Of a DNA stretch of 55,175 nt, positions 21,984-46,157 are shown piece by piece (position 1 is the stretch's first letter; each line of letters opens with the position of its first letter). The stretch comes from Nitrospirota bacterium. GTDB taxonomy: Bacteria; Nitrospirota; Thermodesulfovibrionia; Thermodesulfovibrionales; UBA1546. The notes under the pieces were generated by a model, which did no database searches, was not told the DNA's origin, and saw only the letters and a list, made by a program, of their open reading frames with translations. A program made the translations under genes and the position numbers. The stretch lies in assembly GCA_016208915.1 (NCBI GenBank), contig JACQXE010000082.1, positions 1-55,175 of the forward strand, given 5' to 3'.

Positions 21984-21994
21984 CCAAATTAGAG

Positions 21995-22144
21995 AGGCAG
22001 GGTATGGTATTCGAGCGGTTTTATTTTGCTGATATGCCGACAGTAAGTTTTTTTAATAATCGAGAGGCAAAATACCTCGGAGGCCGTAAGGACCGACCTG
22101 CCTGCCGGCAGGCAGGGAATGAGCGAGAATGCTATACCTTGCCT
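21995..22144 (+). repeat. Structured repeat element, copy 1 (after hisB)
   Basis: Terminal arms AGGCAGGGTATGGTATTC (21995-22012) and GAATGCTATACCTTGCCT (22127-22144) form an imperfect stem. Inside, TTATTTTGC pairs with GCAAAATA, and CCTCGGAGGCCGTAAGG forms a further arm. Copy 2, inverted, is at 45953-46125 and shares most of the core. Copy 1 carries a nested 20-nt palindrome (22097-22116) absent from copy 2. Confidence 0.85.
22097..22116. repeat. Perfect 20-nt palindrome nested in the structured repeat
   Basis: CCTGCCTGCCGGCAGGCAGG is self-complementary. Its position in copy 1 corresponds to an uninterrupted GCCGAGAATGAG in copy 2, so it looks like an insertion. Confidence 0.8.
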
Positions 22145-22166
22145 AATATCCAATAAGGGAATATTC

Positions 22167-28298: not shown

Positions 28299-28452
28299 AA
28301 TAGGTCTAAAACCCACAATCGAAGATTATTCCTTTATAGAAGTATATTATTCAATAAGCCCTGAGCATATTGAAAAAACGAAAACGCTATATTCAGAGAG
28401 GGAATAATGATGAAAACAAAAATACTTATTATATTTTTTATAAGCAGAAGAA

Positions 28453-29182
28453 AAAGGGGACAGGCTACTTTTTAAGCTGGCAGGATAAGAGATGCCGAGG
28501 ATAGTAAGAGGATTAGGAGACAATATTGTGTACCATGTTATTAATCGTGGAAATGGGAAACAAAAAGTTTTTCATACAGAAAAGGATTATGGGGCTTTCA
28601 TGGAATTGGTGAAGGAGGCAAAAGAACGTCATTCTGTAAAGCTCTATGGATATTGTCTGATGCCGAACCATTTTCATATGGCTGTGGAACCTGATAAAGG
28701 TGAGAATTTGAGTCGTTGGATGCAGTGGTTAATGACAAGCCATGTGCGACGGTATCATCGTTACTACAATAGCAGCGGCCATGTATGGCAGGGCCGGTAT
28801 AAGAGTTTCATGATTCAGGAAGATAGCCATTTATTGATGGTTCTGAGATATATTGAGGGGAATCCGGTGCGGGCGAAGATTGTGCAAGGGGCGAGGGAAT
28901 GGCAATGGTCGTCTCATGGGGAAACATCGGGCATGAAGGAAAGATTACTCACCGATGAGGTGCCGATTGAATTGCCGGAAAAGTGGACGCTCTACGTTGA
29001 TAAACCATTTGAAGAATCGGAACTTGATTGTCTGCATAAGAGCGTCAATCGACAAACACCCTTTGGCGATAGTACCTGGCAGGTGAAAATATGCAAAAAA
29101 TTTGGTTTGGAATCAACATTAAGAAGGAGAGGAAGGCCGAAGAAGGAGATGAGAGGATGAGAAAAAGTAGCCTGTCCCCTTT
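28453..29182 (+). mobile_element. RAYT (IS200-like) element with 21-bp inverted ends
   Basis: AAAGGGGACAGGCTACTTTTT (28453-28473) is repeated inverted at 29162-29182, exactly bracketing the transposase gene. Related 'ggggacagtcccc' units occur at 38984-39032 in the giant surface gene and a half-unit at 46906. These may be recognition palindromes or relics of the same system. Confidence 0.8.
28492..29160 (+). CDS. REP-associated tyrosine transposase (IS200/IS605 Y1-like)
   Basis: 222 residues. The Y1 transposase core is visible: YHVINRGNGKQKVFHTEKDY, then LYGYCLMPNHFHMAVEP with the metal-binding HFH pair, and GHVWQGRYKSFMIQEDSHLL, where the catalytic tyrosine lies in the RYKS/RYIEGNPVRA region. 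The basic tail RRRGRPKKEMRG is typical of RAYTs. It lies between 21-bp inverted repeats and appears intact. Unlike IS200, no second orf (TnpB) is present. Confidence 0.92.
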   Translation: MPRIVRGLGDNIVYHVINRGNGKQKVFHTEKDYGAFMELVKEAKERHSVKLYGYCLMPNHFHMAVEPDKGENLSRWMQWLMTSHVRRYHRYYNSSGHVWQGRYKSFMIQEDSHLLMVLRYIEGNPVRAKIVQGAREWQWSSHGETSGMKERLLTDEVPIELPEKWTLYVDKPFEESELDCLHKSVNRQTPFGDSTWQVKICKKFGLESTLRRRGRPKKEMRG

Positions 29183-39637: not shown

Positions 39638-41804
39638 AACAACAATATCGCTATATGACAACCCCTCTATATTCCCCCCTTATCAAGGGGGGACACAGGG
39701 GGGTGTAATAGACACAAAACCTGTGCGCGCCCTTAATTCAGAAGAATCACAGGAAATAACCTTTATCTGGAATGTTCTTGGGAAAGCCGGGGAGCATACA
39801 ATAAAAGCAATTACCGACCCAGAAAATATAGTTATAGAATTTAATGAGGAAAATAACACATCTCAAATGAATATATTGATACCTGATATAGTGCTAATAA
39901 CAGAGACTGACAAAAATATTTATAAGATAAGGCAGAAGGTAAATATCAACTCAATTATAACAAATCTGACGCCATCAAAGACCTATAGCAACCTTATATT
40001 GATAACATCAATTAGCAGCCCTACAGGAGAAGAAGCATATCAGAACAGCACGCCTCTTACTGCTATTCAGCCTTCAGTCACAACAGCACATTCAGCGATA
40101 TGGAATACAGCAGGACTTACTGCTGAGGGAATATATACAATCACACAGAAAGTAATTTCTGATTCGCAACTCATAACTCAAAACTCAAAACTTATAACTC
40201 TTGAGAAGGCACCTGACTTTATTTTGAACACAGATACTGACTATAGGAAGATAAAACAGGGTGAAGGGGCAACGTATACAGCCTATCTCAAACCTGTAAA
40301 TGGATGGACATCGGATGTTACACTCAATATAGGGGGGCTTCCTTCAGGCACATCAGTTTTATTTAATCCAGACAATCTTACCTCTTCAGGAGAGGCGATT
40401 ATAACAGTTATAACAACAGATTCGACAACCATAGGCACACACGTCCTGAATCTCAGTGCAGAAGGCATTGATGAAGGAGAAATAGTTACTCACACATTAC
40501 CATTGACACTGGATATATCAGGTTTTAGATTAATTGCAGAACCATCAAACCAGACAATTAAACAGCTCAATGCAGCAATATTTGACATTAATATTAATTC
40601 AATAAATGGTTATGAAGGAAAGGTAAATCTAAGCATAGACAATGTACCTTATGGCACAAAGATATTTTTTGATATTACAAATACAATAGTTCCGGGAAAT
40701 GTAAAATTAACAATTCTCACATCAAAATATGTAAGACCCGGCAATTATACATTTACTATCGCAGGAGATGATAGACTTGTGAAACACATGCTAAACCTTA
40801 ACCTCAACCTATTACCTAATCCTGAGATTAGAGCAGGTATCATTACAGCAGAGGGTCCAGGCCCAAACAATGAGGCGTGGATAAGGCTTTTTAATATAGA
40901 TCCTGAAACAAGTTCAGGACAGCCTGTGCTTGATCTAACTGCCTTTGACACAAAATACGGTGCATACGTAACTTCTGCTGATATAGATGGAGATGGTTAT
41001 GACGAGATTATCGTTTCTCAAGGGGCTGCTCCAAAAAATAAGGCCATATTAAGGGTATTCAAACAGGATGGAACCTTAATTGCAGAGCATACAGCCTTTG
41101 ACACGAAATATGGCTTAACATTTTCCACAGGAGACCTTGATGGAGATTGGGAGGATGAGCTTATAGTTGGAATGGGGCCTGATCCAAAAAATCCTGCAAC
41201 ATTAAAAGTCTTGAAATACAATGGTAACGGATTTACAGAGGAGATGACCTATACAGCATTTGATACAAGATATGGGCTTAACACAGCTGTTGGAGACATA
41301 GATGGAGATGGAACACCTGAGATAATTACAGCGCCAGGCCCAGGGCCTAATAATCCTGCTATTATTAAAATGTGGAGACAATCCGACTCAGGCGGAGAAC
41401 AAAATCTAACAGAACTTTATAGTTTTGAAGCCTTTGAAGGAAATTACGGAGCAAATATAGCAACCGGAGACATAGATGGAGATGGAAAGGCAGAGATAAT
41501 TACAGGCACAGGCCCTGATCCAAAGAATCCTGCGATAGTAAGAGTATATAAGGCAGATGGGACTTTAATCAGAGAGTTTACGCCTTATGACGTTGAATAT
41601 GGATATGGAGTGGAGGTAGCTGCGGTGGATATAAATGGAGATGGAATAGATGAGATAGTAACAGGGCTTGGCCCCGGACCTCAGAACCCTTCTTGGGTGA
41701 AGGTCTTTAATTCTGATGGTTCAGAGATTTATAGTTTTATCAGTTATCCAGATGATATAGAATATGGCGTAAGAGTATCAAAGGGGAATATGGGAACTGA
41801 ATAG
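39588..41804 (+). CDS. Giant surface protein, segment 3: CARDB-like and FG-GAP repeats
   Basis: 738 residues, overlapping segment 2 by 50 bases in another frame, with no ribosome binding site. It starts in mid CARDB sandwich (IIITVTNQGRTPSTETTISL). A mid region has CARDB/Ig-like units. From ~420 to the end there are five FG-GAP/integrin-alpha-like calcium-binding repeats: DIDGDGYDEIIVSQG, DLDGDWEDELIVGMG, DIDGDGTPEIITAPG, DIDGDGKAEIITGTG and DINGDGIDEIVTGLG, each followed by P(K/N/Q)N(P/K). No sorting signal or anchor is seen at the C-terminus. This is the natural end of the giant gene. Confidence 0.82.
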   Translation: MQIIITVTNQGRTPSTETTISLYDNPSIFPPYQGGTQGGVIDTKPVRALNSEESQEITFIWNVLGKAGEHTIKAITDPENIVIEFNEENNTSQMNILIPDIVLITETDKNIYKIRQKVNINSIITNLTPSKTYSNLILITSISSPTGEEAYQNSTPLTAIQPSVTTAHSAIWNTAGLTAEGIYTITQKVISDSQLITQNSKLITLEKAPDFILNTDTDYRKIKQGEGATYTAYLKPVNGWTSDVTLNIGGLPSGTSVLFNPDNLTSSGEAIITVITTDSTTIGTHVLNLSAEGIDEGEIVTHTLPLTLDISGFRLIAEPSNQTIKQLNAAIFDININSINGYEGKVNLSIDNVPYGTKIFFDITNTIVPGNVKLTILTSKYVRPGNYTFTIAGDDRLVKHMLNLNLNLLPNPEIRAGIITAEGPGPNNEAWIRLFNIDPETSSGQPVLDLTAFDTKYGAYVTSADIDGDGYDEIIVSQGAAPKNKAILRVFKQDGTLIAEHTAFDTKYGLTFSTGDLDGDWEDELIVGMGPDPKNPATLKVLKYNGNGFTEEMTYTAFDTRYGLNTAVGDIDGDGTPEIITAPGPGPNNPAIIKMWRQSDSGGEQNLTELYSFEAFEGNYGANIATGDIDGDGKAEIITGTGPDPKNPAIVRVYKADGTLIREFTPYDVEYGYGVEVAAVDINGDGIDEIVTGLGPGPQNPSWVKVFNSDGSEIYSFISYPDDIEYGVRVSKGNMGTE
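39674..39704. repeat. 'cccccttatcaaggggggac' palindromic repeat in frame
   Basis: CCCCCCTTATCAAGGGGGG is a 7-bp hairpin followed by ACACAGGGGGGT, read as PPYQGGTQGGV. The same family is nested in structured repeat copy 2 (46014-46058). Confidence 0.75.
40165..40202. repeat. 'caactcataactcaaaactc' repeat in frame
   Basis: Read as QLITQNSKLITLE. It is of the AACTTTTAACTC-like family seen at the rplJ-rplL junction. Confidence 0.55.
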
Positions 41805-45880: not shown

Positions 45881-45952
45881 TTTAAACTTGACATCTCCTC
45901 CGGAAAAATTTATGTTTATTATAACATATCAAAGATGTATTGAGGATTTAGT

Positions 45953-46125
45953 GCAGGCAGAACATAGCATTTTCACTCATTCTCGGCCTTACAGCCTCCG
46001 AGGTATTTTGCCTCACCCCCCTCATATCCCCCCTTTGTAAGGGGGGACGAAGGGGGGTACTGTTGGTCCTGAATCAAGTTCAGGATCGGCAAAATAATGC
46101 CGCTCAAATACCATGTTCTACCTGC
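45953..46125 (-). repeat. Structured repeat element, copy 2 (between DUF4390 and the adenosine-specific kinase gene)
   Basis: Read on the minus strand it starts GCAGGTAGAACATGGTATTT and ends AAAATGCTATGTTCTGCCTG plus C. It shares GAGCGG, TTATTTTGC, CAACAGTA and GGCAAAATACCTCGGAGG with copy 1. The terminal stem differs in sequence from copy 1 but still pairs. It has two nested inserts: 46014-46058 and CCTGAATCAAGTTCAGG at ~46069-46085. Confidence 0.85.
46014..46058. repeat. 'cccccctttgtaaggggggac' palindromic insert in copy 2
   Basis: CCCCCCTTTGTAAGGGGGG hairpin with CCCCCC/GGGGGG flanks, related to 39674-39704. Copy 1 has unrelated T-rich sequence here. Confidence 0.75.
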
Positions 46126-46157
46126 ATGCAAAAAACTTATAATTTAAGGAGGGCTTT

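Follow-up and report, generated by a model that had tools for sequence, protein, structure and literature searches.

It has been suggested, from the sequence alone, that two inverted copies of a repeat in the window (the whole stretch of 55,175 nucleotides that was analysed) represent a new structured family, either a multi-junction RNA or a MITE, which itself serves as a target for smaller repeats. The locus thus raises the question of what kind of element this is, whether it is kept for a function near its neighbouring genes or whether it moves, and if so, which of its parts travel.

A three-armed fold with constant joints and free helices

It is firmly established that both window copies belong to one family of structured repeats sharing a three-armed fold; the element is non-coding and has a length of about 140 bases (copies of ~140-180 bases). 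The positions given for the copies (21995-22144 on the forward and 45953-46125 on the reverse strand) and the core motifs listed as common to both are correct, and their terminal stems are, as described, unlike in sequence and paired in both, with exact ends. Copy 1 does contain a single nested 20-nt palindrome and copy 2 two other nested hairpins (46085-46067 and 46058-46015), both in arm P2. The pairing was also compared with shuffled controls, giving z = -6.1 for copy 1 and z = -10.0 for copy 2, and none of 200 shuffles folded equally well. Copy 1 lies beside genes for imidazoleglycerol-phosphate dehydratase and a HAD hydrolase, and copy 2 beside a DUF4390 gene and an Adenosine_kin gene. 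The parts of both copies are listed below, with reference to the alignments A2 (38 copies without nested inserts from this genome, G000, which is the basis of covariance model R1) and A8 (a model-fitted alignment of 38 diverse copies from across phyla).

21989..22150, + strand: copy 1, whole element (bounds from covariance model R1; 110.9 bits, E 2.3e-23)
21995..22012, + strand: copy 1, 5' arm of terminal stem P1 (AGGCAGGGTATGGTATTC), with 18 pairs to 22127-22144 in the minimum-energy fold
22013..22018, + strand: copy 1, joint GAGCGG (tandem G.A, then junction-closing pairs), near-invariant in A2 and A8
22019..22074, + strand: copy 1, arm P2 (TTTTATTTTGC ... GGCAAAATA) and variable loop, from the covariation analyses of A2 and A8
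22075..22096, + strand: copy 1, joint CCTCGGAG and arm P3 as far as the nested insert, from the covariation analyses of A2 and A8
22097..22116, + strand: copy 1, nested palindrome of 20 nt (CCTGCCTGCCGGCAGGCAGG) that separates P3 from the last joint (same insert type in 25 of 101 copies)
22117..22126, + strand: copy 1, joint GAATGAGCGA, near-invariant in A2 and A8
22127..22144, + strand: copy 1, 3' arm of terminal stem P1 (minimum-energy fold)
45949..46129, - strand: copy 2, whole element (bounds from covariance model R1; 97.8 bits, E 2.9e-20)
46106..46125, - strand: copy 2, 5' arm of terminal stem P1 (GCAGGTAGAACATGGTATTT), pairing with 45953-45972; the three non-Watson-Crick positions of this stem are all G-T on the element strand
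46067..46085, - strand: copy 2, nested hairpin TCCTGAACTTGATTCAGGA in arm P2 (from the fold)
46015..46058, - strand: copy 2, nested hairpin ACCCCCC...GGGGGGT in arm P2 (from the fold; this kind in 19 of 101 copies)
45953..45972, - strand: copy 2, 3' arm of terminal stem P1, pairing with 46106-46125

The proposed multi-junction fold is borne out, as the consensus is a three-way junction with covariation in all three helices. Its order is terminal stem P1 (18-20 bp in nearly all copies, with pairing at chance level past about position 22), tandem G.A positions, two G-C pairs, arms P2 and P3, an unpaired AAUGA and the return strand. Only about 27 bases are near-constant; the joints GAGCGG, CCUCGGAG and CGAGAAUGAGCGA are near-invariant, while the helix sequences vary almost freely yet remain paired. 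Both sides have changed in 31 of the 47 pairs of A2, a number reached by none of 500 shuffles, the covariation score is 0.36 versus 0.07-0.09 in slid controls, and RNAalifold recovers P1, P2 and the base of P3 unaided. The corresponding values for A8, which as a structure-fitted alignment is biased towards that structure, are 43 of 47 pairs and a score of 0.72 versus 0.12-0.13 (0/500 shuffles as high). Compensatory base changes, a criterion of functional structured RNA, are thus present in all helices. GC-rich genomes have the same joints and wholly different helices, and the P2 and P3 loops of many GC-rich or divergent copies (L275, L287, L108, L113, L110) are ARGGAU-like between C and G.

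The two strands are not equivalent in this respect. Among non-Watson-Crick pairs of P1, G-T and A-C stand at 151:34 in this genome, 123:15 in G004 and 140:23 in 68 further Nitrospirota copies, whereas A-C is no rarer than G-T in the flanks that served as control, and the forward strand has the more stable fold in 35 of 38 copies. The excess is found mainly in the inner half of P1 and is partly shared by descent. Since it is equal in copies sense and antisense to genes, it is no by-product of transcription. Pairing in the Nitrospirota sets is therefore strand-specific, and one strand folds into the three-way junction; 21 copies from GC-rich phyla gave 39 G-T versus 31 A-C, register slips included, which is no clear bias.

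Copy number and distribution

A search of the genome by blastn with copy 1 gave 64 matches, corresponding to about 40 separate copies, and R1 found 118 matches at E<=1 in the 2.5 Mb genome, of which some 110 are below 1e-4 and occupy about half a percent of it. Relatives carry the element as well: of 246 sampled genomes of the phylum, 45 have R1 matches. The exact pattern of the three joints matched more than 100 stretches among GTDB species genomes, chiefly from Nitrospirae/Thermodesulfovibrionales MAGs and also from MAGs named Latescibacterota, Gemmatimonadetes, Parcubacteria, Melainabacteria and Nitrospinota. Copy counts outside Nitrospirota, obtained with the cross-phylum covariance model R2, were 3-58 in Latescibacterota, 57 and 78 in Gemmatimonadetes, 2 and 6 in Parcubacteria and 16 in Melainabacteria. 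One copy from a MAG labelled Nitrospinota (L334, JAHILQ010000059.1) is almost identical to a copy from a Nitrospirota genome (L095), and that MAG or contig may be mis-binned. Viral contigs contained no exact match to the joint pattern, which leaves carriage by phages unsupported.

The family was rightly called new: it is previously uncatalogued, with no Rfam 15 match at gathering score (only tRNA reached threshold) and no published description found in literature searches of incomplete coverage. Because Rfam lacks it and the arms of copies in GC-poor and GC-rich genomes have no sequence in common, it would escape an ordinary sequence search.

Turnover and exchange of parts

Presence and absence were compared in fetched stretches, comprising 785 kb of G004 and about 100 kb of G011 together with single loci. 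These two genomes have flanks that are ~95% identical, and their comparable sites are partly shared. Some sites are empty in one of them (L185/L214, with 9 nt left, L187/L204 and L203/L243), and four gaps hold an unrelated copy in opposite orientation (L161/L202, L169/L214, L245/L216 and L181/L227 in G011/G004). Shared copies may also have one arm exchanged, namely P3 in L159/L226 and P2 in L243/L203 and L244/L202, and a single P2 hairpin was found with three different P1 and P3 arms. Pairing changes at copies shared by G004 and G011 comprise, in a very small sample, 7 that keep a pair versus 6 that break or make one. Between G000 and G004, which belong to different genera, about half of some 30 alignable sites are filled in both, and three of the 'empty' sites contain remnants. 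Hence the element behaves as mobile DNA, with quick gain, loss and arm swaps between close species; intermediates of excision or insertion were not seen.

The core and the ends of the element have separate histories. Copies from the same genome show almost no correlation between identity in the core and identity in P1 (rho 0.08 and -0.03), P1 identity between copies is about 0.55 even where cores are near-identical, and a pair of G004 copies separated by 1.3 kb have unlike but well-paired stems around the same 83-nt core. At orthologous sites of G000 and G004, on the other hand, P1 identity is 0.66 versus 0.55 for random pairs (p 0.004), and the cores are no more alike. This uncoupling, together with a P1 that is bound to its site, indicates that cores pass from site to site, by movement or by conversion, while their ends stay behind. 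The palindrome CCTGCCTGCCGGCAGGCAGG likewise argues for core-end uncoupling: it is present in 25 of 101 copies in this genome, about 20 times at exactly one joint and in copies with differing ends, and it was not found within 300 bp of copies, elsewhere in the window or in the 785 kb of G004. The idea that the element is a target for smaller repeats is accordingly right in that smaller palindromes are nested in it; the 20-nt palindrome itself was found only inside the element, which suggests a module belonging to one subfamily rather than a repeat that invades independently. Palindromes of the types CCCCCC...GGGGGG and TCCGCC..GGCGGA occur outside the element too. The former, found inside the element (window 46015-46058) and at 39673, constitute a separate small repeat family.

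Stems lacking a core were also encountered. In three of them (L228, L229 and L207) P1 is closed by GAGCGA, AAGCGA or GAGCAA, as would be expected had the core been lost through a deletion between the GAGCG repeats on either side of it. One case can be dated: G007 has a full element, G011 and G004 have a 31-bp palindrome, and more distant genomes have neither. A deletion between two TGTC repeats would turn the G007 sequence into exactly the G011 palindrome, and is a simpler reading than insertion with a 4-bp duplication. Insertion of cores into pre-existing hairpins was considered and rejected, because stems without a core are few (G000 has two clear examples) and the dated case better fits deletion.

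These observations may be explained, with a confidence that we put at about even, by a family of modular, non-coding and non-autonomous mobile elements, in which a folded single strand is recognised at its junction by a trans-acting factor and cores are copied. The factor would bind the junction of single-stranded RNA or DNA, and cores would then be copied, by transposition or gene conversion, into other sites, either new or already occupied. Arms P2 and P3 would tolerate any hairpin, and small palindromes would for that reason collect there. This explanation is favoured because of the covariation, the G-T excess, the many intergenic copies and the presence in other phyla, as well as the clean presence and absence, the unrelated copies in reverse, the swapped arms, the uncoupling of core and P1 and the insert at one joint. 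Counted against it are the failure to find a mover among the tested families, the lack of visible intermediates, the copies kept with related P1 at some orthologous sites between genera, copies in thiamine-gene gaps that have matching orientation in two distant genomes and could mean a local function, and the strand ratio of 39 to 31 in GC-rich phyla. A bolder version is possible, albeit doubtful: the junction would define a separate class of mobile elements, whose factor reads only the single-stranded three-way junction, so that all helices, ends included, are rebuilt or exchanged and the element persists across phyla with almost no conserved sequence.

Alternatively, the element may be a passive repeat with no dedicated mover, whose copies are spread and made alike through ectopic recombination, through gene conversion or through template switching at stalled forks, with the aid of the shared joints, where switches within a palindrome keep the arms complementary. 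Homogenisation of cores within genomes while P1 remains at its site is what such processes would leave, and arm swaps located at joints, core deletions between short direct repeats and the lack of a mover among the families tested point the same way. However, these processes alone make no copies at clean empty sites, palindrome correction yields Watson-Crick pairs and does not predict an excess of G-T over A-C, and spread across phyla is hard to picture, which makes this alternative rather unlikely.

Functional alternatives and known systems

Structured RNAs typically combine a constant junction with free helices. The element has the same architecture, and its fold is specific to one strand irrespective of gene orientation, as would be the case for independent small RNA genes with their own promoters and a role in trans, such as that of a protein sponge or a ribozyme. 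The GGA loops of the ARGGAU type in arms of GC-rich copies resemble the CsrA binding motif and suggested a CsrA sponge of the CsrB/RsmZ type, although several hosts have no CsrA. This candidate was rejected, as CsrA is missing in most Thermodesulfovibrionales tested, including this genome, G004, G011 and G002. Given in addition that 110 copies with fast turnover are unusual for small RNA genes, this explanation is improbable.

Copies are intergenic, with more than 20 bp of overlap with a predicted gene in only 3 of 101 (gene calls from a simple codon model), and the median distance from the end of the element is 7 nt to an adjacent stop codon and 27 nt to a start codon. Such proximity to stop codons and ribosome-binding sites, together with the strong RNA-like covariation, could be expected of a cis-acting regulatory or processing RNA of the neighbouring genes, such as a riboswitch, an attenuator or an mRNA stabiliser. 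In G004 and the more distant G255, moreover, successive gaps between genes resembling those of thiamine biosynthesis (thiE, thiG and thiC) contain one copy each, always in the same orientation, which may represent recurrent insertion or retained function:

L098 486-2776 (G255) and L202 8957-12762 (G004), same orientation in both: thiamine-gene gap copies

Nevertheless, between co-directional genes of G000 and G004 the folded strand is antisense in 88 cases and sense in 35 (88 of 123; p 2e-6), the genes between clustered copies are ordinary, unrelated housekeeping genes, and turnover is rapid. Both orientations occur, even at one site in sister species, so that a cis-regulatory role is unlikely; it appears decidedly improbable once all the evidence is considered, and the copies are probably dispensable for expression of the neighbouring genes. 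The antisense excess possibly reflects selection against the folded strand in mRNA, or else an insertion preference; a small GC-rich sample has the opposite trend (antisense 3 versus sense 9).

The other half of the original suggestion, a MITE, is highly improbable in the classical sense of an element moved by a DDE transposase, and so is a REPIN moved by a RAYT: the element is small, non-coding and intergenic, has terminal inverted repeats and is present or absent between species, and this genome has ten Y1 transposase matches, but its terminal repeats have no fixed sequence (P1 identity of ~0.55 despite near-identical cores), direct repeats beside P1 in 154 copies equal the shuffled control for target-site duplication, and there is no partner in the tested families. 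A RAYT/IS200 partner was rejected because Y1 is missing from several copy-rich genomes (G263, G264, G265 and G268, with 16-78 copies), each such absence being limited by MAG incompleteness. RVT_1 had no match in G000, G011 and most copy-rich genomes, under the same limitation for each absence, and a retroelement mechanism (group II intron, retron) was therefore rejected. The fetched sequence contained no autonomous copy with a gene in an arm, and a GT[AG]G foot 5' of a hairpin is not among the element's invariant columns. At 28450-29180 the window itself has a gene for a Y1 transposase as large as a RAYT (222 aa), flanked by inverted GTAG-type repeats of its own (GGGGACAGGCTACTTTTT / AAAAAGTAGCCTGTCCCC) that are unrelated to the element.

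The preferred explanation thus remains a mobile element recognised at its junction. A bacterial small interspersed repeat is usually defined by its sequence and has been described from a single species or genus. In contrast, one fold here recurs at many copies in MAGs of several phyla while turning over within a genus, which offers a natural system to study how repeats spread with neither ends nor arms fixed. The element can also confuse the annotation of operons, terminators and non-coding RNAs in these lineages.

Some likeness to known systems is evident. Cyanobacterial small dispersed repeats include palindromes of about 20 nt nested in other repeats, similar to the CCTGCCTGCCGGCAGGCAGG insert; the latter, however, occupies a single joint of one element family in nearly every case, and the sequence examined contained none outside that family. 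The BOX elements of Streptococcus (PMC3049150) are, in architecture only and by description, alike in being modular, intergenic and present in many copies, with a predicted stem-loop RNA whose outer modules form the base and whose middle is exchangeable, but BOX modules have a defining sequence and have been described in streptococci, whereas the present family, which extends over several phyla, is constant in its joints alone and has an outer stem of free sequence. REP, BIME and REPIN sequences with their RAYT (PMC3116915, PMC6006769) are also palindromic, extragenic, high-copy and strand-specific, and are thought to be moved as single-stranded DNA hairpins; the element differs from them in that it lacks a GTAG foot and folds into a three-way junction where they form paired hairpins, and in that several copy-rich genomes have no Y1 transposase. 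Bacterial MITEs (Correia, RUP, Nezha, ERIC; PMC3049150) are similarly small and non-coding, with inverted-repeat ends, many copies and presence or absence among relatives, but the present element has neither a target duplication nor a conserved terminal sequence. In conclusion, the element is described here as a small interspersed repeat of a new variety, which acts in the manner of a non-autonomous mobile element and is not assigned to MITE, REPIN or BOX.
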